Below, piece by piece: positions 1,221 through 9,834 of a stretch of 13,450 nucleotides of DNA (the first letter of the stretch is position 1; each line of letters opens with the position of its first letter). Under the pieces are notes generated by a model. The model did not search any database. It was not told the DNA's origin and saw only the letters and a list, made by a program, of their open reading frames with translations. The stretch spans positions 1 through 13,450 of the forward strand of contig JAJYJF010000019.1 of assembly GCA_021796375.1 (NCBI GenBank). The letters are read 5' to 3'. This DNA is from Chloroflexota bacterium. GTDB taxonomy: Bacteria > Chloroflexota > Anaerolineae > Anaerolineales > Anaerolineaceae. The translations under genes and the position numbers were made by a program.

Positions 1221-2918
1221 TTACTCATTCGCCAAAATCACCTGGATGCCTTGCTTGGAAAGCTCCAGCCGCGTGCTGGCGGGCAGGGCGTCGTCGGTGA
1301 TCAGACGGTTCACCACCGAGAGCGGCGCCACCTGGACGACCGATTCCTGGCCGAAGGCGGTGTGATCCGCCAGCAGGATCACCTCGCGCGCCGAGCGGAT
1401 CATGGCCTGCTTCATGGTCACCTCGGAGATGTTGGTGTGCCACAGCCCGTGGTCGATGGAGATCCCTGCCACCATGAGGAACAGCTTGTCGCCGCGTAGC
1501 TCGCGCAGGGCGCCCTCCGCGGTGGGACCGACCAGCATCTGGCTGCTGTGCCGGTACGCTCCGCCGGTCAAAATCAGCACGACGTCTTCATTCCCCTCTA
1601 GAATTTTAAATACACCCACCGAATCGGTGATGACCGTGATGTCTTTGCGCGAGGCGAGCGCCTCCGCGAGGTAGTTGGCGGTAGGCCCCCCGTCGATGAG
1701 GACCACCTCGCCGGGATGGATCAGATCGGCGGCGACCCGGGCGATCACCCGCCGGCGCATGTCGATCTCGTCCTTCAGGTTCTGCTCGGCGTCGATCACC
1801 TCAAAGCCGATGCCGAGCCGGCCGGCGTACGCCTGCATCGAGCCGAAAAGCTCGCGGTACCACTCGTGCTCGCTGAAGGGGATGATGAACCCGACCCGGC
1901 GCGGCAGCTTGAGCCCGCTGCGCGGGCGCTGGGGGTCGATATCCATGGGGATCTGGAATTCCCGCCGGACGGTATCCCAGCGGATCTCCCAGCCGCTTGC
2001 GCCGGGTGTGTAGAAATCTGGCAGGGATTGGGGGGTCAAAACGGCATAGGGGGTGACCAGCTCGTGCGGGATGGGCAGGTGGTTGTAGGCGGCGATCGAG
2101 GCTTCCAGGCACACCGGGGCGACGATCTCGGGGAACATGGCCACGCCGATCTTGCAGTAATCCGCCTGCATCAGCGCGTTCTTGAGCGTATCCCCCTCCA
2201 ACCCGAAGGGGATGACCAGGATGGAATCCGGGTCGATGCTCAGATCCCGGCAGGCCTGGATGGCGGCCCAGGCGGTGGTGTCGTTGATGGCGAAGATCAG
2301 GTTGATCTGCTTGTGAACGGCCAGCGCGTCGCGGGTGAGCTGGTAGGCGGTCGAATAGCGGGATTGGGCGTTGATGGAGAGGACGATCTCCGCGTCCGGG
2401 ATGGACTCGTGCAGCCCGGCGGTGAACCCGCGGCTGCGCAGCTGGGTGTTGGAGAGGGAATACGTCAGGTCCAGCGCGTAGGCTTTGCCGCCCCAGTGCT
2501 GGCGGGCGTATTCCCCTGCCCGCCGGCCGACGTCCAGCGCGGCGTGGTAGTTGTCGACCGCGACGACCGTCTCTTCATTCCGGACCTTGAGCGATTCGGC
2601 GATGATCGGGATGCGCTTGCGGGAGAGGCTTTCCAGCAGGAGGTTATCGTACTTCGGGTTGACCGAGGTGGTGACCAGCACGTCCACCCGGTCCACCAGG
2701 GCGGCGTCCGGCCGGCTGGCGGGGGAAAGCTCGCCGTCGCCCAGCGCGGCAGCCCCGCCAAACGTCCGGCGCAGGCGATTTTCCAGCTCGAGCCGGTCCA
2801 GGTCGCGGCGGATGGTCATCTCGGAGACCTGGAACGCCCGGCCCAGCTCCCCAACGGATATATAGCCACGCTCGTTCACCAGGCTGACGATCTGTTCCAG
2901 GCGTTCCTTGGATGCCAT
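1221..2918 (-). CDS. DeoR-family transcription regulator with embedded, permuted sugar-binding-protein domain
   Basis: A 565-residue DNA-binding regulator, about twice the roughly 250 residues of ordinary DeoR proteins. Residues 1-57 are a DeoR winged helix-turn-helix (ISVGELGRAFQVSEMTIRRDL, then RLRRTFGGAA). Residues 74-303 read like the middle and end of a LacI/ribose-binding-protein fold (VDVLVTTSV, VAVDNYHAALDVGRRAGEYA, LIFAINDTTAWAAIQACRD, VLTPQSLPDFYT). Residues 340-387 read like the missing first strand-helix-strand of such a fold (RVGFIIPFSEHEWYRELF, then IGFEVIDAEQN). Residues 388-560 are a full DeoR C-terminal sensor (LIDGGPT, LTGGAYR, LVGPTAEGAL, DKLFLMVAGIS, REVILLADHTAFGQ), a fold that normally binds phosphosugars. 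The start at 2918 is chosen because GGAAGGTGGA precedes it at the right distance and because the in-frame start at 3020 lies upstream of the gene's own promoter. It is transcribed divergently from the sugar ABC operon and probably controls it and itself. Confidence 0.88.
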   Translation of the reverse strand: MASKERLEQIVSLVNERGYISVGELGRAFQVSEMTIRRDLDRLELENRLRRTFGGAAALGDGELSPASRPDAALVDRVDVLVTTSVNPKYDNLLLESLSRKRIPIIAESLKVRNEETVVAVDNYHAALDVGRRAGEYARQHWGGKAYALDLTYSLSNTQLRSRGFTAGLHESIPDAEIVLSINAQSRYSTAYQLTRDALAVHKQINLIFAINDTTAWAAIQACRDLSIDPDSILVIPFGLEGDTLKNALMQADYCKIGVAMFPEIVAPVCLEASIAAYNHLPIPHELVTPYAVLTPQSLPDFYTPGASGWEIRWDTVRREFQIPMDIDPQRPRSGLKLPRRVGFIIPFSEHEWYRELFGSMQAYAGRLGIGFEVIDAEQNLKDEIDMRRRVIARVAADLIHPGEVVLIDGGPTANYLAEALASRKDITVITDSVGVFKILEGNEDVVLILTGGAYRHSSQMLVGPTAEGALRELRGDKLFLMVAGISIDHGLWHTNISEVTMKQAMIRSAREVILLADHTAFGQESVVQVAPLSVVNRLITDDALPASTRLELSKQGIQVILANE

Positions 2919-2957: not shown

Positions 2958-2986
2958 ATTATAGCGAAAGTAATGTTCGAAGTCAA
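2958..2986 (-). promoter_or_regulatory. Sigma-70-type promoter of the DeoR-like regulator
   Basis: On the minus strand, TTGACT (2981-2986) and TATAAT (2958-2963) are separated by exactly 17 bases: a 5/6 match at -35 and a perfect -10. Transcription would begin near 2951, giving a leader of about 33 bases before the ATG at 2918. This fixes the translation start, because the longer in-frame start at 3020 would not be on the transcript. Confidence 0.8.
2973..2981 (+). promoter_or_regulatory. Candidate operator, copy 1 (ATGTTCGAA)
   Basis: ATGTTCGAA sits in the spacer of the regulator's own promoter, overlapping the edge of its -35 box. It contains the palindrome TTCGAA and matches copy 2 at 3037-3045 in 8 of 9 bases. 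The half-site ATGTTCG is like that bound by the DeoR-family repressor GlpR. CGAAAGT lies just beside it (2965-2971) and has a counterpart, TGAAAGT, beside copy 2. Confidence 0.5.
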
Positions 2987-3027: not shown

Positions 3028-3056
3028 TTGACAAACATGTTTGAAAGTGCTAACAT
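3028..3056 (+). promoter_or_regulatory. Sigma-70-type promoter of the sugar ABC operon
   Basis: A perfect TTGACA (3028-3033) and TAACAT (3051-3056, 4/6 match) are separated by 17 bases in an AT-rich region. Transcription would start near 3063. Because the first gene starts at 3480, the transcript would carry a leader of about 415 bases. The candidate operator lies inside this promoter. Confidence 0.72.
3032..3045 (+). promoter_or_regulatory. Candidate operator, copy 2 (CAAACATGTTTGAA)
   Basis: A perfect 12-bp palindrome, CAAACATGTTTG (3032-3043), overlaps the -35 box and spacer of the sugar operon promoter. It includes ATGTTTGAA (3037-3045), the near-copy of copy 1. The two copies are in the same orientation and 64 bp apart, close to six helical turns, so both could face the same side of the DNA. 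A protein bound here would block RNA polymerase. Confidence 0.5.
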
Positions 3057-3062
3057 AATGGC

Positions 3063-3479
3063 GACCTGATTAAATCCGCACATATTCGTTAACGGCAAGG
3101 CACAAAAACGGTATAACAGCCTTCTGGGGTGGAAGGTCCGGCTTGCCGTCTCTCCCGCAGGTGGGAATTTTATCGGAAGAGTTTCCTCTTATCTGGTTGT
3201 TCTGGCAATCCCAGGGCTGGGCGGCGCATGCCTGGTCTGTCTGGTAGGCGGTCTGATTCGATCATTTATTTGCCTGCAAACTTTTGGTCAACGGCGCGAA
3301 TTCGGAAAGGAGGTTGTCCCGATCGGCTTGAATAACTGCCAACGAGCAGGGAAGAGGTTTGCAACTGGCCCCGCTATTTTCGAGGCGTTGGAATGCCCGG
3401 GAATCGGGGCGAAGGAACAGCTCTCAAAACGGATTTAAAATCGGATCCCAATCTCAACAAGAGGAATGGAGAGACCAAG
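3063..3479 (+). other. Long leader of the sugar ABC operon, no convincing gene
   Basis: About 415 bases separate the promoter from the first gene. Near its 5' end ACGGCAAG (3092-3099) pairs perfectly with CTTGCCGT (3142-3149). That stem encloses a second hairpin, CCTTC (3120-3124) against GAAGG (3132-3136), with a 7-base loop. A consensus-like Shine-Dalgarno AAAGGAGG (3306-3313) is present but has no ATG or GTG at a proper distance; the nearest start is a TTG at 3328, 14 bases on. A frame without stops runs from 3070 to 3435 but has no good start codon. I recognise no known riboswitch class. The leader may regulate expression, or be a relic of a lost gene. Confidence 0.45.
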
Positions 3480-4523
3480 ATGAAGAAGTTGTTCTCGATT
3501 ACCAGCATTCTGGTCGCAGTGACCATGCTGCTGGCTGCCTGCGCGGCGCCGGCGGCGCCGACCACGGCGCCAGCCGCTCCCCAGGCAACCACCGCGCCGG
3601 CAGCGCCGGCGGCGTTGACGGCGGACAAGATCACGATCGCGGGGGTAGTCTTCCAGGACGACCAGTTCATGAACACCCTGACGAAGGGGTACACGGACGC
3701 GGGGGCCAAGTACGGGGTGAAAGTGCTGACGGCCAACACGAACAACGACCAGTCGAAGGAAGCCGAGCTGATCCAGACATACATTTCGCAGGGGGTAAAC
3801 GGGATAGCCATCGCCCCGCTGTCGAAGGACGCGTCGATTGCCAACCTGAAGCAGGCGGATGCCAAGGGGATCAAGGTAGCCATCACCAACATGTCGATCT
3901 CGGACAGCTCGTTTCTGGTGGGGGGGTTCACCTCGGACGATCACACCAACAGCAAGATTGTGGGCGACAACGCGGCCAAGTTCATCCAGGCGACCTTCCA
4001 GGGGACGCTGAACGTGGCGCGGGTGGACTTTGACGACCAGCTGCCTGACCAGTCGAAAGCGCGCTGGAGCGGGTTCTACGATGGGCTGACGGCGGCGGGG
4101 ATCAAGTACAACGAGGTGGCGCACACCTCGGCGCACGCCCAGGACACAGCCCTGGCGCAGACGACGGACATGCTGACGGCGCACCCGGAGATCCAGGTGA
4201 TCTATGCCTGCAACGAGGGTGGGACGATTGGGGCGGTCCAGGCGGTCAAAGAGGCGGGCAAGGCGGGCAAGGTGTTCGTGTTCGGCTATGACGGCTCGGA
4301 CCAGCTGACCAGCATGATTCTCAGCCCGGACAACATCCTGCAGGGCACCGTGGCGCAGGATCCGTACAACATGGGCTACAAGGCAGTTGAGGCGCTGGTG
4401 CTGATGCTGGAAGGCAAGGACGTGCCCGACAAGGGCAAGATCACGGTCGTCAACGGCACCTACCTCGGCCGCTCGGATCCCGAAGCTGTAAAAGCATGGC
4501 GCACTGCCAACGGTCTGAAATAA
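3480..4523 (+). CDS. Sugar ABC transporter substrate-binding lipoprotein (RbsB-like)
   Basis: A 347-residue binding protein of the Peripla_BP_4/RbsB class, which captures a monosaccharide outside the membrane and delivers it to the permease. Residues 1-20 are a lipoprotein signal peptide ending in the lipobox LAAC with Cys21 as the lipidated residue. An Ala/Pro/Thr-rich tether of about 20 residues follows, then the mature domain. The mature domain opens KITIAGVVFQDDQFMNTLTKG and includes NTNNDQSKEAELIQTYISQG, IQVIYACNEGGTIGAVQAVK and VFGYDGSDQL, the usual landmarks of the family. The start at 3480 is chosen over the in-frame ATG at 3393 because the signal peptide starts there and GGAGAG (3468-3473) is well placed. 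It is the first gene of the operon; an intercistronic hairpin follows it. Confidence 0.93.
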   Translation: MKKLFSITSILVAVTMLLAACAAPAAPTTAPAAPQATTAPAAPAALTADKITIAGVVFQDDQFMNTLTKGYTDAGAKYGVKVLTANTNNDQSKEAELIQTYISQGVNGIAIAPLSKDASIANLKQADAKGIKVAITNMSISDSSFLVGGFTSDDHTNSKIVGDNAAKFIQATFQGTLNVARVDFDDQLPDQSKARWSGFYDGLTAAGIKYNEVAHTSAHAQDTALAQTTDMLTAHPEIQVIYACNEGGTIGAVQAVKEAGKAGKVFVFGYDGSDQLTSMILSPDNILQGTVAQDPYNMGYKAVEALVLMLEGKDVPDKGKITVVNGTYLGRSDPEAVKAWRTANGLK

Positions 4524-4621: not shown

Positions 4622-6109
4622 GTGAGCGACCTGATGATCCGTACCGAGCATATCACCAAAGATTATCCCGGAACCCGCGCCCTGGAGGACATCTCGCTGT
4701 CGTTCGGCAGCGGCCAGGTCCACGCGCTGGTGGGGAAAAATGGCTCAGGCAAGTCTACCCTGGTGAAGATCTTCGCGGGGGCGATCAAACCCACCAGCGG
4801 GAATTTTTACCTGAACGACGAGAAGCTGCACTTCAACGCCACCTCGGATGCCTATGACAAGGGGATCGTCACGGTATACCAGGAGATGAGCCTGGTGCCG
4901 GGGCTCTCCGTGGCAGAAAATATCTTCCTGGGCAGGCTGCCGCAAAAGTACAGCTCGATCGACTGGCGCAAGACCTACAAGATGGCGGGCGTGCTGCTCA
5001 AGAAAATGAAGCTGGACGTCGACCCGCGCGAGAAGGTTTCTCGCCTGTCGATGTGGCAGAGCCAGGTGGTCGAGATCACCAAGGCGCTCAGCTTCAATCC
5101 CAAGGTGATCTTGCTCGACGAGCCCACCTCTTCCCTGGCCCAGAACGAGGTGCAGAGCCTGTTTGAGGCGGTGAGGGCGCTGCGCGACCAGGGCGTGGTG
5201 GTGATCTACATCACCCACAAGCTGCAGGAGCTGCCCCAGATCGCCGACACCGTCACCGTGCTGCGCGATGGGAGATTGATCGGCAGCGTCGAGATGGATG
5301 AAGTCGAGCATAAAGATATCATCCACATGATGTTTGGCGAGGTAAAAGTTCAGAGCCGCCCGAAAGACATCCAGATTCAGGATGATATCGTCATGGAAGT
5401 CAAAGGGCTCTCGCGCGAGGGCTGGTTTAAGGACGTGAGTTTTTCCCTGCGCCGCGGGGAGGTGTTGGGGATCGCCGGCATGCTCGGCTCCGGGCGGACG
5501 GAGCTGTTGCACGGCATCTTCGGCGCGGATCGAGTCGACCGGGGCGAAGTGATCATCGAAGGCAAGACGTACAAGCGCGCCAACCCCATTAAGATGAAAA
5601 ATGCCGGGATCGGCCTAACCCCTGAAAACCGGAAGAAGGAAGGGCTGATCCTGATTCACTCCATCATGGATAACCTGTGCTACGCCAGCATGAACATCAC
5701 CGACAACGGCTGGGTGGAAAATAAAGGCCGGCGAGCGGAATTTGCCAGCCGGCAGGTGCGAGAGCTGGAAATCAAGGTGCCGGATATCAAGGCGGCGTGC
5801 AGCTCCTTATCGGGGGGAAACCAGCAGAAAGTGGTGGTCGGCAACTGGCTCAATACCAGCCCCAAGATCATGCTGTACGACGAGCCCTCGCGCGGGATCG
5901 ACGTGAACGCCAAACAGCAGATCTTCGAGATCATGTGGACCCAGGCGCGCAAGGGGGTGTCGACCGTGTTCGTTTCCACCGAGCTGGAAGAGCTGCTCGA
6001 GGTCTGCCACCGCATCCTCATTATGCGCCACGGGAAGATCGTGGCTGAGGTGAACCCGGATGCCGTGAGCATTAATGAGCTTTACGAAACGTGCATGAGA
6101 GGAGACTGA
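4622..6109 (+). CDS. Sugar ABC transporter ATPase, two ABC domains (RbsA/MglA-like)
   Basis: A 495-residue cytoplasmic ATPase with two tandem ABC domains, the normal length for the RbsA/MglA/XylG family that powers monosaccharide import. Domain 1 has Walker A GKNGSGKST (38-46), signature LSMWQ (from about 142), Walker B VILLDEP (about 162-168) and an H-loop histidine in ITHKL. Domain 2 begins near residue 255 with the degenerate Walker A GMLGSGRTE (about 286-294), then LSGGNQQK (about 396-403), IMLYDEPSRGID and STELEEL, where the H-loop histidine is absent. Non-glycine signatures in domain 1 and a degenerate second site are normal for this family. The start is a GTG at 4622, with GGAGG (4610-4614) seven bases upstream; the ATG at codon 5 is a less well placed alternative. 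Confidence 0.95.
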   Translation: MSDLMIRTEHITKDYPGTRALEDISLSFGSGQVHALVGKNGSGKSTLVKIFAGAIKPTSGNFYLNDEKLHFNATSDAYDKGIVTVYQEMSLVPGLSVAENIFLGRLPQKYSSIDWRKTYKMAGVLLKKMKLDVDPREKVSRLSMWQSQVVEITKALSFNPKVILLDEPTSSLAQNEVQSLFEAVRALRDQGVVVIYITHKLQELPQIADTVTVLRDGRLIGSVEMDEVEHKDIIHMMFGEVKVQSRPKDIQIQDDIVMEVKGLSREGWFKDVSFSLRRGEVLGIAGMLGSGRTELLHGIFGADRVDRGEVIIEGKTYKRANPIKMKNAGIGLTPENRKKEGLILIHSIMDNLCYASMNITDNGWVENKGRRAEFASRQVRELEIKVPDIKAACSSLSGGNQQKVVVGNWLNTSPKIMLYDEPSRGIDVNAKQQIFEIMWTQARKGVSTVFVSTELEELLEVCHRILIMRHGKIVAEVNPDAVSINELYETCMRGD

Positions 6110-6113
6110 ACCT

Positions 6114-7124
6114 ATGGAAAACGCCGCCGCCGGGAGACAGGTATTCAATCAAAAAAGGGTCGGCCTGTTCTTGCTCGACCATATCATGGAAGTCTTCCTC
6201 ATCGCGCTCATCGTCGGGCTCACCTTTGGCGCGCACGGATTCATGACCTGGGACAACTGGATGAACATCCTGCGCAGCAACTCGCTGCGCGGGGTGATCG
6301 CGCTGGGCATGACGATGGTCATCATCGCCGGGCAGATCGACCTGTCTATCGGCTCGACCGTTGCCCTGGCGGGGGTGATCGTCGCCCGCAGCTGCCGCGA
6401 CCTGACCCCCCTGGGCGTGGACATCAACCTCGCGGCGGTGATCGGGATGGTTTTATCCCTGGCGGTCGCCGTGCTCTTCGGCTGGATGCACGGCTCGCTG
6501 GTGCATCGAGCCGGCATGCCGTCCTTTATCATCACACTGGCCAGCAAGTTTGGCCTGTACGGGCTGGCAGCTATCATTTCCGGCGGTTACCCGATCGCCA
6601 ACCAGTTCCCGGATTGGTTCAACCAGATCGGCGGCGGGCGGGTCGGCGGTCAGGACGGCGTCCCCATCGCCGCGATCATCCTGATCGTGGCGTTCCTGAT
6701 CGTCCTGTTCATCATGAACAACACCACCACCGGGCGGGCCACCTACGCGGTGGGCGGCAACCCGGAATCCGCCCGGCTGAGCGGGATCAACGTCGGCAAA
6801 ACCATCGTCTTCGCGCTGGTCATCGTGCAGGTGATGGCGGTGATCTCCGGCTTCATGACCTCCGGACAGGTGATGGCGGGGTCTTACTCCTTCGGCTTCG
6901 GCTGGGAGTTGGACGTGATCGCGGCGGTGATCATCGGCGGGACCAGCTTTCTGGGCGGTATCGGCACGGTCTGGGGCACGCTCCTGGGGATCGTGTTCAT
7001 GGGCGTGATCACCAACGGGATGACCCTCCTCAACTTCGATATCTACACCCAGTACATCGTCCGGGCGGTCATCATGGCTCTGGCGGTGCTGGTGAGCTCG
7101 TACCGGGCCAAGGTGAAGGCCTGA
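6114..7124 (+). CDS. Sugar ABC transporter permease (RbsC-like)
   Basis: A 336-residue integral membrane permease of the BPD_transp_2 family (RbsC, MglC, XylH), which forms the import channel as a dimer with the ATPase. It is strongly hydrophobic with about eight to ten helices. Family landmarks include SLRGVIALGMTMVIIAGQID, LSIGSTVALAGVI, PSFIITLASKFG, YAVGGNPESARLSGINV (the cytoplasmic loop that contacts the ATPase) and VIIGGTSFLGGIGTVWGTLLG. GAGAGGAG (6097-6104) precedes the ATG by nine bases and overlaps the end of the ATPase gene, which stops only four bases before this start. The two are therefore tightly co-expressed. Confidence 0.95.
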   Translation: MENAAAGRQVFNQKRVGLFLLDHIMEVFLIALIVGLTFGAHGFMTWDNWMNILRSNSLRGVIALGMTMVIIAGQIDLSIGSTVALAGVIVARSCRDLTPLGVDINLAAVIGMVLSLAVAVLFGWMHGSLVHRAGMPSFIITLASKFGLYGLAAIISGGYPIANQFPDWFNQIGGGRVGGQDGVPIAAIILIVAFLIVLFIMNNTTTGRATYAVGGNPESARLSGINVGKTIVFALVIVQVMAVISGFMTSGQVMAGSYSFGFGWELDVIAAVIIGGTSFLGGIGTVWGTLLGIVFMGVITNGMTLLNFDIYTQYIVRAVIMALAVLVSSYRAKVKA

Positions 7125-7169
7125 TCCAGAATCCGCGGAAGCGGCTGCAGGGAAAATGGGGGTCGCTTG

Positions 7170-8081
7170 ATGGACCGATACGGCGGGGTGGAAGCGGGAG
7201 GGACGAAATTCGTCTGCATGGTCGGCAGCGGGCCGGAGGATATTTCCGCGGAAATCCGCTTCCCGACCACCACCCCCGCCGAGACGATCGGGCGCGCGGT
7301 CGATTTTTTCCGCGAGCAGCTGCGGTCCGGGCCAATCCGCGGGGTGGGCATCGGCTCGTTCGGGCCGCTGGACCTGGACCCCGCGTCGCCGGCCTACGGG
7401 TTTATCACCACCACGCCCAAGCCGGGCTGGGCCGATACGGACCTGATCGGGCCGCTGCGCGAGCTGCTGCAGGCGCCGGTGGTGATCGATACCGACGTCA
7501 ACACGGCCGCTCTCGGCGAATATCTCTGGGGGGCGGCTCAGGGAATCCAGCAGTTCATCTATAACACGATCGGCACGGGGATCGGGGCGGGTGGGATCAT
7601 CAATGGGCTGCCGATCCACGGCATGCTGCACCCGGAGACCGGGCACATGCGCATCCCGCACGACCTGGAGATGGACCCCTTTCCGGGGATCTGCCCGTTT
7701 CACGGCGACTGCTTCGAGGGGCTGGCTTCCGGGGTCGCGCTGCGCGAGCGCTGGGGGGTGCCCGCCGAGCAGCTGCCGGTGGAGGCCCCGGCCTGGGACC
7801 TCCAGGCGCATTACATTGCCCTGGCGCTGGTCAACCAGATCTGTATGATCTCCCCCCAGCGGGTGGTCCTGGGAGGCGGGGTGATGAAGCGCGCCGGGCT
7901 CTTCCCGCTCGTGCGCCGCAAAGTGCAGCGGTTCCTGAACGGCTACGTCGACCGGGATGAGGTGAAAAGCGAGATCGACCGCTATATCGTCCCGCCGGTG
8001 CTCGGGGACCGGTCGGGCTGCCTCGGCGCGATCGGGATGGCCCAGCACTGGGCGGGAGACCTGGGGCCGGGCAAACAATAA
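7170..8081 (+). CDS. ROK-family fructokinase
   Basis: A 303-residue sugar kinase of the ROK family, matching its fructokinase branch: ATP plus fructose (possibly mannose) to the 6-phosphate in the cytoplasm. Visible motifs are GGVEAGGTKF (5-14, phosphate-binding loop), IGSFGPLDL (61-69), TTTPKPGW (80-87), DTDVNTAALGE (107-117, with the catalytic Asp109), NTIGTGIGAGG (132-142) and HPETGH (154-159). CPFHGDCFEGLASG (175-188) supplies cysteine and histidine for the structural zinc together with His159. The HPExGH plus CPFHGDC form is typical of fructokinases, rather than the CxCGxxGC form of glucokinases. The ATG at 7170 is preferred over the adjacent TTG at 7167, with GGGGG (7158-7162) upstream. 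It lies 45 bases after the permease gene and is probably the last gene of the operon, phosphorylating the imported sugar. Confidence 0.88.
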   Translation: MDRYGGVEAGGTKFVCMVGSGPEDISAEIRFPTTTPAETIGRAVDFFREQLRSGPIRGVGIGSFGPLDLDPASPAYGFITTTPKPGWADTDLIGPLRELLQAPVVIDTDVNTAALGEYLWGAAQGIQQFIYNTIGTGIGAGGIINGLPIHGMLHPETGHMRIPHDLEMDPFPGICPFHGDCFEGLASGVALRERWGVPAEQLPVEAPAWDLQAHYIALALVNQICMISPQRVVLGGGVMKRAGLFPLVRRKVQRFLNGYVDRDEVKSEIDRYIVPPVLGDRSGCLGAIGMAQHWAGDLGPGKQ

Positions 8082-8123: not shown

Positions 8124-9215
8124 TCACTCCCCGCTCGCGCCTTCGGGAGACGTAGAGCGCGCCGACAGCAGGCTCCCATCCGGGGCGTAGCGGCCGTAGC
8201 GGTGGGCAGCCTCTACCAGGGCATGGACGTTCTCGAACGGGGTCGCGGGCGGTAGGGCGCAGCCCGGCCCGAGGATCAGCCCGCCCCCCTCCGCCAGGAT
8301 GCTCAGCTCCTCCTGAACTTTTGCGGCAACAAGCTCCGGCGTGCCGAGGGCCAGCACGCTGCTCGGGTCGATCACCCCCAGGATCGTGGTCTTACCGCGC
8401 GCGGCCTCTTTGATCTTGGACAGGTCGCACTTGTAGTCGAGCTCGAGCACGGCGGAGCCGGTAGCGACCATATCTCCCACAATGCGGGTGGCATTGCCGC
8501 AGATGTGGTAGGCCAGCGGGATGGATTTCTGCCTCAGCCGCTCCACCAGGCGGCAGGCGTAGCCCCACTCGAACTCCCGGTACATGCGCGGTGAGGTGAC
8601 GTCCGGCCCGGAGAGCGACTCGCCGATCGAGGTCATGCGCGCCCCCTGTTCGGCCTGGGCGACCGCATAGCGGTAAACGGTTTCGAGCGCGAAGGCCAGC
8701 AGGGCATGCAGCTTGGGGTGCTCTTTGGGGTCGGAGAGGGCCAGCAAAAATTTTTCCAGGCCGAGCAGCATAGAAGCCAGGGAAAATGGGCCCTGGTCTG
8801 CCCGCGAAAGGAGGTAGGCCTGCTCGCCGATCTCGCGTGAGACGATCCGGGTGGCGACCAGGTTCTGATTGAGCGGGAATGCGCTGGCAAAATCCGGGAT
8901 GGAAAGCCTGTCCAGGTCGTCCAGGCTGTCGAGGACCGGCCTGACCAGCACCGGAGCGCTGCCCGGCAGGTACTCGACGCCGCACCCGCAGGCCTCCGCC
9001 AGGGTGGTGGTGCCGCTCTCCAGGATCAGCAGGTCGTGGCCAAACTCGCGCCACAGGCGGATCTGCCATTTGGCCATAGCCTCGCCGTCCCGCAGGAAGT
9101 CCGGGAAAGGCATGCCGGAAGCGTGGGCGGTCATGAGGAAGTTGTGGAGGTCGACCGGCACCCGGTCGGGGATCCCACCGGCGAGGACGGTCTGCACGCG
9201 CTCGATGGAGTTCAT
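8124..9215 (-). CDS. UroD-superfamily methyltransferase (MtaA/CmuA-like), zinc-site type
   Basis: A 363-residue protein of the uroporphyrinogen-decarboxylase superfamily. It opens in the family style (MNSIERVQTVLAGGIPDRVP). It looks more like the corrinoid methyltransferase branch (MtaA, MtbA, CmuA) than HemE. AYHICGN (235-241) carries the His237-X-Cys239 pair, and LGPGCALPPATPFENV (315-330) carries Cys319, together the His-X-Cys...Cys zinc site used to activate thiols such as coenzyme M. Its natural substrate cannot be read from the sequence, and no corrinoid protein gene is in the window. The start at 9215 gives a normal N-terminus and sits one base after the stop codon of the upstream DUF1360 gene, with little Shine-Dalgarno of its own, suggesting translational coupling. 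An in-frame ATG at 9269 would overlap that gene. It converges with the fructokinase gene, 42 bases away. Confidence 0.82.
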   Translation of the reverse strand: MNSIERVQTVLAGGIPDRVPVDLHNFLMTAHASGMPFPDFLRDGEAMAKWQIRLWREFGHDLLILESGTTTLAEACGCGVEYLPGSAPVLVRPVLDSLDDLDRLSIPDFASAFPLNQNLVATRIVSREIGEQAYLLSRADQGPFSLASMLLGLEKFLLALSDPKEHPKLHALLAFALETVYRYAVAQAEQGARMTSIGESLSGPDVTSPRMYREFEWGYACRLVERLRQKSIPLAYHICGNATRIVGDMVATGSAVLELDYKCDLSKIKEAARGKTTILGVIDPSSVLALGTPELVAAKVQEELSILAEGGGLILGPGCALPPATPFENVHALVEAAHRYGRYAPDGSLLSARSTSPEGASGE

Positions 9216-9216
9216 A

Positions 9217-9834
9217 TCAGCGTTTTTTAGATTGGCCGGTGACCGGGAGGCGGTCGGGTTCTTCCTCATCTTCTTCGAGGATCTCCGGGCTGGACCGGTC
9301 TGAGCGGGCCAGTGGAGCTTCCGAGTCGCGGAGGATGGCCCCCGTGCGGGTGCGGGCGAGCTGTCCGGACCAGCTCAAGGATTCGACGGCGGAGTTGAGA
9401 ACCTCGGCGAAGCCGATCGCGCCCAGGATGGTGACCAGGATGCGGGCCGGACCCGGCCAGGCATACAGCAGCAGCACCAGCAGCCAGGCAGACCAGGTGC
9501 CGGCGCAGATCGGGCAGGAGATCAGCTGGCCGAACGCGCGGCGGACGCCGCGGCCTTTCGGCTCTACGCTCTCCCCCGCCCCGGTCCCATCCGGGACGGT
9601 CTCGGTGAACGGGGCGCGCAGCGGCTCCATGACCAGGTCGTAGGCGAGCATGCGTCCCATGCGCAGGGTCGCAAAGACGAGCAGGACGAGGTCCGTCACC
9701 GTCAGGTGAAATGCATCCAGGCCCTGCCCGGTAGAAAGCCTCCACCAGGCGAACCCCCCCAGCGATCCCAGGAAAATTACCGTCAGGATAACTTTGGTGA
9801 GATATTCAGCTTGATCGGGTCGGTTCGCACCCAT
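9217..9834 (-). CDS. DUF1360 membrane protein
   Basis: A 205-residue protein with a membrane helix near residues 13-33, a second hydrophobic stretch near 43-58, and a hydrophobic pair near 113-150. Between them is the DUF1360 pattern: LRMGRMLAYDLVMEPLRAPF (57-76), followed by GQLISCPICAGTWSAWLL (102-119) with a Cys107-X-X-Cys110 pair. The domain occurs in small bacterial membrane proteins, including Bacillus spore-related ones, and has no established reaction. The C-terminal roughly 45 residues are acidic and polar, and probably cytoplasmic. The start at 9834 has GAGGG a few bases upstream. It lies 112 bases after the secreted TPR-like protein gene, and its stop is one base from the next gene's start. 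Confidence 0.78.
   Translation of the reverse strand: MGANRPDQAEYLTKVILTVIFLGSLGGFAWWRLSTGQGLDAFHLTVTDLVLLVFATLRMGRMLAYDLVMEPLRAPFTETVPDGTGAGESVEPKGRGVRRAFGQLISCPICAGTWSAWLLVLLLYAWPGPARILVTILGAIGFAEVLNSAVESLSWSGQLARTRTGAILRDSEAPLARSDRSSPEILEEDEEEPDRLPVTGQSKKR

Follow-up and report, generated by a model that had tools for sequence, protein, structure and literature searches.

The window analysed here, that is, the whole stretch of 13,450 nucleotides from a Chloroflexota bacterium (contig JAJYJF010000019.1), carries a regulator gene whose product is probably a sugar-responsive DeoR-type repressor in which a complete type I periplasmic-binding protein (PBP) sits, as a circular permutant, between the helix-turn-helix (HTH) and the DeoRC core. 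This likely reading draws on several observations. The parts of the PBP stand in swapped order relative to binding proteins of the same subfamily, and do so in one family that forms one clade in the tree made; the ligand pocket, drawn from two pieces, is invariant or nearly so; the region is modelled confidently as a single domain; a sugar ATP-binding cassette (ABC) importer is encoded divergently; and the window protein lacks the lysine and the first threonine of the DeoRC inducer site. The permutation itself is evident from sequence comparison and is supported by structure prediction. The features of the gene are as follows.

1221..2918, minus strand: regulator gene, 565 amino acids plus stop codon, ATG at 2918 (open reading frame)
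2745..2903, minus strand: HTH_DeoR DNA-binding domain, residues 6-58 (Pfam, E 2.4e-15)
1962..2699, minus strand: main piece of the permuted PBP, residues 74-319, running from N-lobe strand 3 through the C-terminal tail (Pfam; BLASTP, 78-319; structure alignment)
1767..1940, minus strand: displaced beginning of the PBP, residues 327-384, with lead, beta1, alpha1, beta2 and the start of alpha2 (profile scoring, BLASTP, hidden Markov model)
1857..1868, minus strand: predicted ligand-contact motif H351-E352-W353-Y354 in the displaced piece (conservation, alignment to 2fn8)
1725..1790, minus strand: continuous predicted helix, residues 377-398, from PBP alpha2 into the first DeoRC helix (DSSP, full model)
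1293..1754, minus strand: DeoRC sensor domain, residues 389-542 (Pfam, E 3e-46; Foldseek match to 7l6l, E. coli DeoR)
1356..1358, minus strand: residue 521, alanine, at the position of the inducer-site lysine found in 38 of 38 ordinary DeoR proteins (alignment)

It had been proposed in an initial annotation of this DNA that a DeoR HTH and a DeoR C-terminal sensor are split by a binding-protein insert, and Pfam bears this out, with HTH_DeoR at residues 6-58, Peripla_BP_4 at 74-262 (E 5.1e-14) and DeoRC at 389-542. The Peripla_BP_4 match covers profile positions 52-238 of 258, and the first ~51 positions are absent from it. A PBP of about 310 residues thus separates HTH from DeoRC, a departure from the two-domain DeoR layout, and the matches of the regulator to DeoR-type equivalogs of NCBIfam fall under their cut-offs. 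No LacI HTH occurs among the 11 Pfam families found at E <= 1, the HTH being of the HTH_DeoR kind instead. The insert shares with type I PBPs their sequence homology and, by prediction, their bilobed fold; it lacks their canonical strand order (Peripla_BP_4 / cluster B). In most of the homologues listed, length and start are close to those of the window protein.

When residues 338-390 are moved in front of residues 70-308, the profile match begins at position 1. Against Peripla_BP_4/Peripla_BP_1 the window protein scores 58.3/41.0 bits in this reordered form, 52.0/31.1 in native order and 46.7/25.5 with the segment shuffled, and the corresponding reordered and shuffled values are 78.9/68.1 versus 65.2/38.5 bits for the protein P0114 and 63.5/40.6 versus 56.3/26.4 for P0020 (one shuffle was made per protein, and native order was scored for the window protein only). 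A Leptolinea protein, for which the reordered form alone was scored, reaches 84.3/47.7 bits. A profile of 11 reordered domains (15 had been selected) was searched against 5.8 billion proteins and returned 129 matches at E <= 1e-5, the best 120 of which are, judging by length and Pfam labels, mostly fragments of the regulator family. The matches listed include P0258 (204 bits, 35% over 99%) and P0263 (162 bits, 30% over 98%), both of them secreted binding proteins in normal order, as well as 19 ordinary binding proteins, none of which exceeds 62 bits. More normally ordered relatives are encoded in tandem in the Chloroflexota genome G253 (two, at locus L070) and beside a family regulator in genome G538 (one, at L115). 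These five relatives belong to the same PBP subfamily as the domain in the regulator; they differ in carrying an N-terminal leader and neither HTH nor DeoRC, and in the loci seen they belong to ABC importers.

The swapped order is most directly visible in BLASTP (E-values computed for an assumed database of 1e6 residues), in which residues 136-379 of G253 protein 2 match residues 78-319 of the window protein (34%, E 1.4e-39), and its residues 67-122 match the later residues 327-382 (37.5%, E 3.3e-6). As the two pieces omit only residues 123-135 of the homologue (13 residues, at the break), the lead before residue 67 and the last 7 residues, the regulator carries nearly the whole mature binding protein. 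The second piece is also matched by P0258 (E 0.004) and by G253 protein 1 (E 0.11). Judged from these alignments, the chain of the binding protein is cut within the helix that connects strands 2 and 3, and its old ends are joined through residues 320-326.

The same arrangement recurs throughout the family. A hidden Markov model (HMM) built from the five relatives with normal order was used to score 190 regulators, near-duplicates included, which comprise 165 of the 173 proteins P0001-P0173 (8 under 555 residues were dropped; the set consists of the window's own protein, one locus translation and database proteins) and 25 proteins from genome loci. In every one of the 190, a main match is followed further downstream by one to the N-terminal portion of the HMM, which scores 24 bits at the median and 8.7 at the least. 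Displaced segments cut at the match borders and scored alone reached a median of 29 bits and a minimum of 13.3, compared with a maximum of 2.4 among 1900 shuffled segments and of 3.5 among 38 ordinary DeoR proteins, the five best of which have no match in the N-terminal part of the HMM. The 190 members are related by descent and therefore do not amount to 190 independent tests. For the 28 members printed, 27 main matches begin at HMM positions 128-144 (that of L124 at 228), and 25 displaced matches end at 132-150, the other three at 176-178, which supports two complementary pieces of one circularly permuted domain. In a tree of 53 domains, some outgroup branches of which are long, all 35 permuted domains form one clade (97/99; L124 was left out), with four normally ordered proteins of Chloroflexota type as its sister (89/75) and P0263 just outside (98/96 for the whole). 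Since the permuted domains form a single clade, the permutation probably arose once.

Structure prediction agrees with these comparisons. The excised region is predicted to fold as one confident domain (predicted local distance difference test score, pLDDT, 92; predicted template modelling score, pTM, 0.88). In the predicted models the displaced piece supplies strands 341-346 and 371-376 and helix 352-368, and the third N-lobe strand lies at 80-83, ahead of the body of the PBP domain; the helix that runs on into DeoRC in the full model reappears in the excised model as H312-334, that is, residues 377-399. The excised model aligns over both pieces with TpMglB-2 (Tp0684), a circularly permuted glucose-binding protein. 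Foldseek and VIA-align produce sequential alignments, so that ordinary binding proteins are matched chiefly over the main piece, and a test of both pieces comes from the TpMglB-2 row; 5br1 (two alignments) and 4y9t (one) also extend to residue 368, but they begin in normal order. TpMglB-2 was not among the 37 chains at E <= 0.001 in a profile search of solved structures. The circularly permuted sugar sensor put forward in the initial annotation thus gains support from the complementary pieces, the swapped BLASTP matches, the single-domain model and the TpMglB-2 alignment. Its suggested check by structure prediction gave one confident domain, in which residues 74-303 belong to a PBP fold and residues 340-387 are more than an extension of the DeoR sensor. 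The layout it gave for the two pieces was right and its borders (74-303 and 340-387) were slightly too narrow, BLASTP placing them at 78-319 and 327-382.

The putative ligand pocket draws on both pieces. In our reading of the HMMER alignment to the ribose-binding protein 2fn8, H351 and W353-Y354 sit at the N-N-P-W-F loop, whose positions we take to be N13, F15 and F16 of RbsB, and S109, R161, N212 and E241 pair with D89, R141, N190 and D215. Conservation among the 190 regulators is close to complete in the displaced piece (H351 in 190, W353 in 189, Y354 in 190) as in the main piece (E108 in 190, S109 in 186, R161 in 190, N212 in 190, E241 in 189), and the normally ordered G253b, G538 and P0258 share H-E-W-Y, the Glu of E-S, R-S, I-N-D, C-E-G and M-F-P-E. 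That a conserved pocket is drawn from the two pieces is a strong sign that both function as one domain, and pocket, homologues and gene context together suggest that the permuted PBP senses a sugar.

The DeoRC core, in turn, has changed. According to passages of PMC10991401, Asp210/Lys213 of LacR and Asp206/Lys209 of UlaR are required for the phospho-sugar inducer; the aligned positions in the window protein are D518 and 521. Look-ups of the phosphate site in PMC11229326 and of DeoR in PMC5882156 yielded no passage. The 38 ordinary DeoR proteins have Lys521 in every case, Thr413 in 35, and at position 412 Thr in 33 and Ser in 5. Within the family, for which 55 of the 190 members were compared (45 of the window subfamily and 10 of a subfamily 2), D518 is present in all 55; in the window subfamily, Pro, Gln or Glu occupies position 412 in 42/45, and Ile or Val position 413 in 40/45. 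The window protein itself has A521 and P412, so that the Asp of the LacR-type pair is present and the Lys is not. Since the lysine and the Thr-Thr pair are mostly lost in the window subfamily, sensing has probably moved to the PBP, and this subfamily has probably lost phospho-sugar sensing, while subfamily 2 (Lys521 in 9/10, Thr413 in 8/10, Thr412 in 2/10) may have two inputs. Members of both subfamilies occur in five genomes (G466, G483, G538, G580 and G648). The initial annotation had caught the architecture; the loss at the DeoRC inducer site, the normally ordered counterparts and the second subfamily had been overlooked.

A mechanism may be proposed on this basis. The ligand-free protein would bind TGTTYGA half-sites in two divergent promoters and thereby block an importer-kinase operon and its own gene. 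Imported, unphosphorylated sugar would enter the PBP cleft, where it would be contacted by H351, W353 and Y354 of the displaced piece and by E108/S109, R161, N212 and E241 of the main piece. We propose that closure of the lobes shifts helix 377-398, which is common to PBP and DeoRC, and that this shift would alter the DeoRC oligomer and release the DNA; in the window subfamily DeoRC would serve as relay and oligomerisation core and not as phospho-sugar sensor. Permutation would give a PBP placed between HTH and DeoRC a rigid exit into DeoRC, which an end-to-end fusion would not. More tentatively, and with somewhat less than even confidence, the family may be seen as a case of sensor replacement by permutation: the second helix of the PBP became continuous with the first DeoRC helix and wired cleft closure into the DeoR core, subfamily 2 represents a two-input intermediate (free sugar and sugar phosphate), and the window subfamily dropped the phospho-sugar site, leaving DeoRC as relay.

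The regulator gene is divergent from a sugar ABC importer operon that encodes a binding protein, an ATPase, a permease and a ROK kinase, as listed here with the predicted promoters.

2958..2986, minus strand: predicted regulator promoter, TTGACT-17-TATAAT, 11/12, whose spacer contains half-site TGTTCGA (plus-strand letters, 2974-2980)
3028..3056, plus strand: predicted promoter of the transporter operon, TTGACA-17-TAACAT, 10/12, with palindrome CAAACATGTTTG (3032-3043) over the end of the -35 element and the spacer
3393..4523, plus strand: RbsB-type sugar-binding protein, normal strand order (Pfam Peripla_BP_4, E 1.1e-41)
4622..6109, plus strand: sugar ABC transporter ATPase (Pfam/NCBIfam)
6114..7124, plus strand: sugar ABC transporter permease (Pfam/NCBIfam)
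7167..8081, plus strand: ROK-family sugar kinase, nearest to fructokinase ScrK (287 bits; model cut-off 400)

The two sigma-70-like promoters of the intergenic region face each other (shuffle mean 0.5), and TGTTYGA half-sites lie at 2974, 3013 and 3038, two of them within promoter spacers. Upstream regions of the window and 14 related loci (15 in total) hold 17 copies of TGTTYGA, compared with a mean of 2.4 and a maximum of 9 in 300 shuffles, for a motif that was picked after inspecting the sequences. An RbsB-type binding protein lies within 6 kb at 12 of 28 related loci; 9 have the full set of binding protein, permease and ATPase, and 4 a ROK gene. Other neighbours are genes for PfkB kinases, mannose-6-phosphate isomerase and fucose-isomerase-like, mannitol dehydrogenase-like and epimerase proteins; as the neighbouring enzymes vary, the ligands are probably sugars or polyols that differ among members. 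The window's own binding protein was considered as the nearest source of the regulator PBP and was tentatively rejected on the basis of BLASTP and the tree, in which its branch is long. Genes of the URO-D / MtaA-like methyltransferase family recur in the neighbourhood, at 8124-9269 in the window and in 9/28 related loci; in the window, a DUF1360 frame (9217-9834) overlaps the URO-D frame by 53 bases, and the start of the latter may be further in.

Several results, besides the late choice of the motif, weigh against a permuted, sugar-sensing PBP that has taken over from DeoRC. Four of the 15 upstream regions have no TGTTYGA, 16 of the 28 loci have no RbsB-type binding protein match within 6 kb (contig ends account for some of these), and the window's own secreted binding protein is only weakly similar to the regulator PBP (E 0.12). 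P0263 gives the main piece only in BLASTP, two of the five normally ordered relatives deviate in the contact motif (S-E-W-N in G253a, H-E-F-Y in P0263), and direct-coupling analysis of contacts between the two pieces is noise-limited (effective number of sequences, Neff, 102). The pLDDT drops to 73 in block 376-385 of the excised model, at the start of the helix, and the full-model pTM is only 0.65, which leaves it uncertain how HTH, PBP and DeoRC are placed relative to one another and makes the lever-helix step a guess. Finally, Lys521 is retained in 9/45 of the window subfamily and in nearly all of subfamily 2, and T413 in the window protein; loss of sensing by DeoRC is therefore neither family-wide nor proven.

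These last residues bear on the strongest of the alternatives, namely that DeoRC still senses a phosphorylated sugar from the neighbouring kinase and that the PBP is either a relic or an additional input. D518 in all 55 sequences, the lysine and Thr413 of subfamily 2, T413 of the window protein and the ROK kinase gene within the window speak for it, but A521 and P412 stand where ordinary DeoR proteins have Lys (38/38) and mostly Thr (33/38), and the PBP pocket is conserved across the family, which makes a relic unlikely; altogether we consider this alternative improbable, though worth more weight than the others. Canonical DeoR-type proteins are oligomers, and the displaced piece might accordingly complete the PBP fold of a partner subunit, cis and trans being indistinguishable from sequence. 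Such a domain swap appears quite unlikely given that the excised single chain is modelled confidently (pTM 0.88), that the main piece and the first strand are linked in cis by 21 residues (320-340), and that TpMglB-2, reported as a monomer in passages of PMC4990184, is permuted in cis.

Two independent partial insertions, in which a truncated PBP and a beta-alpha-beta unit of a second PBP copy never formed one domain, would correspond to the 'twice-inserted' sensor that the initial annotation had offered as its other option. Tandem double binding proteins adjoin several regulators, so that an origin by duplication and trimming is plausible, but that origin would still yield a circular permutant, and the breakpoints are complementary, the same normally ordered homologues are matched by both pieces, and one common pocket is conserved; we therefore hold separate insertions to be very unlikely. 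Least credible of all is that residues 340-387 are a mere extension of the DeoR sensor. The adjoining helix does continue into DeoRC, but ordinary DeoR proteins remain at or below 3.5 bits to the binding-protein HMM where the segments have a median of 29, and the swapped BLASTP matches, the HMM match in 190 members, the shuffles and the excised model refute it.

The ingredients of the permuted regulator are known singly, as DeoR regulators, HTH-PBP chimeras and permuted PBPs, and what appears to be new is their combination; no description of a permuted PBP between HTH and DeoRC was found in the search of the open PMC literature, which covered titles and the opening lines of abstracts. Regulators of DeoR/GlpR type (LacR, UlaR, GlpR, E. 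coli DeoR 7l6l) have HTH_DeoR and DeoRC as does the regulator, but no inserted domain, and those compared carry the inducer-site Lys (38/38). AraR has been described as a chimera of a GntR HTH and a LacI-type sugar-binding PBP fold (PMC4218819); its PBP is C-terminal, DeoRC is lacking, and permutation is unmentioned in the passages of that paper used here. TpMglB-2, designated 'Type Ic', has N-lobe strands at its C-terminal end, as in the regulator PBP; according to passages of PMC4990184 it has its first three strands moved, compared with two in the regulator, and is a secreted lipoprotein without a DNA-binding part. The two permutations appear to be independent. Biosensor engineers permute binding proteins or insert them into output domains, and the regulator resembles a natural version of this practice; evolution appears to have made such a permutation once, and the family that retains it is widespread (190 members were checked). 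Since normally ordered counterparts exist, in G538 as the gene next door, the effect of permutation on allostery is directly testable, and the family forms a natural series in which to see how a regulator may switch its signal from a metabolite to the imported precursor.

With regard to distribution, two full-length searches gave 1036 and 1155 matches at E <= 1e-5, of which the best 120 of each were considered, and the sources that name listed members call them DeoR-family regulator or sugar/substrate-binding protein. The vague sense of Chloroflexota relatives expressed in the initial annotation was right, since 23/396 genomes of the window's class carry the family (E <= 1e-60), named carriers including Leptolinea tardivitalis. 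In a sample of the phylum, 158/400 genomes gave a match at E <= 0.001, and among the matches listed (to E ~1e-24) a full-length match occurs only in G000 and G232, the window's genome and one other. The patterns for the scan of named genomes came from the window protein only, so distant members outside Chloroflexota are possible.

Other arrangements of the same domains were seen in the surveyed loci. In another Chloroflexota genome, L066:378-2156 (minus strand) encodes an HTH_DeoR-DeoRC-PBP fusion of 592 residues, which has the three domain families in common with the regulator but carries its PBP C-terminally and in normal order (profile 1-255), and which falls outside the permuted clade (long branch). 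Two further candidates were discarded: of the apparent long DeoR fusions of Clostridium at L007 and L009, the one whose open reading frames were read (L007) consists of two adjoining ordinary DeoR genes, and the long frame at the DeoRC match of L067, judged by eye, is an unrelated extension of the frame followed by the end of an ordinary DeoR protein. Binding proteins of 670-744 residues with two Peripla_BP_4 stretches stand beside regulators at L004:5542-7773, L103:9651-11660, L105:6263-8473, L107:5434-7443 and L109:5419-7644; tandem PBP copies are also what the duplication route to circular permutation requires. At L146:7850-9876 (minus strand), an ordinary DeoR gene of 284 residues adjoins a normally ordered RbsB-type gene and ABC genes, the parts being unfused. 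In L145 and L147, one permease-ATPase-permease set is accompanied by a tandem pair of binding proteins of the subfamily, both in normal order, with UxuA, gluconolactonase-like and SDR genes as neighbours in L145 and an FAD oxidoreductase-GcvT fusion in L147.
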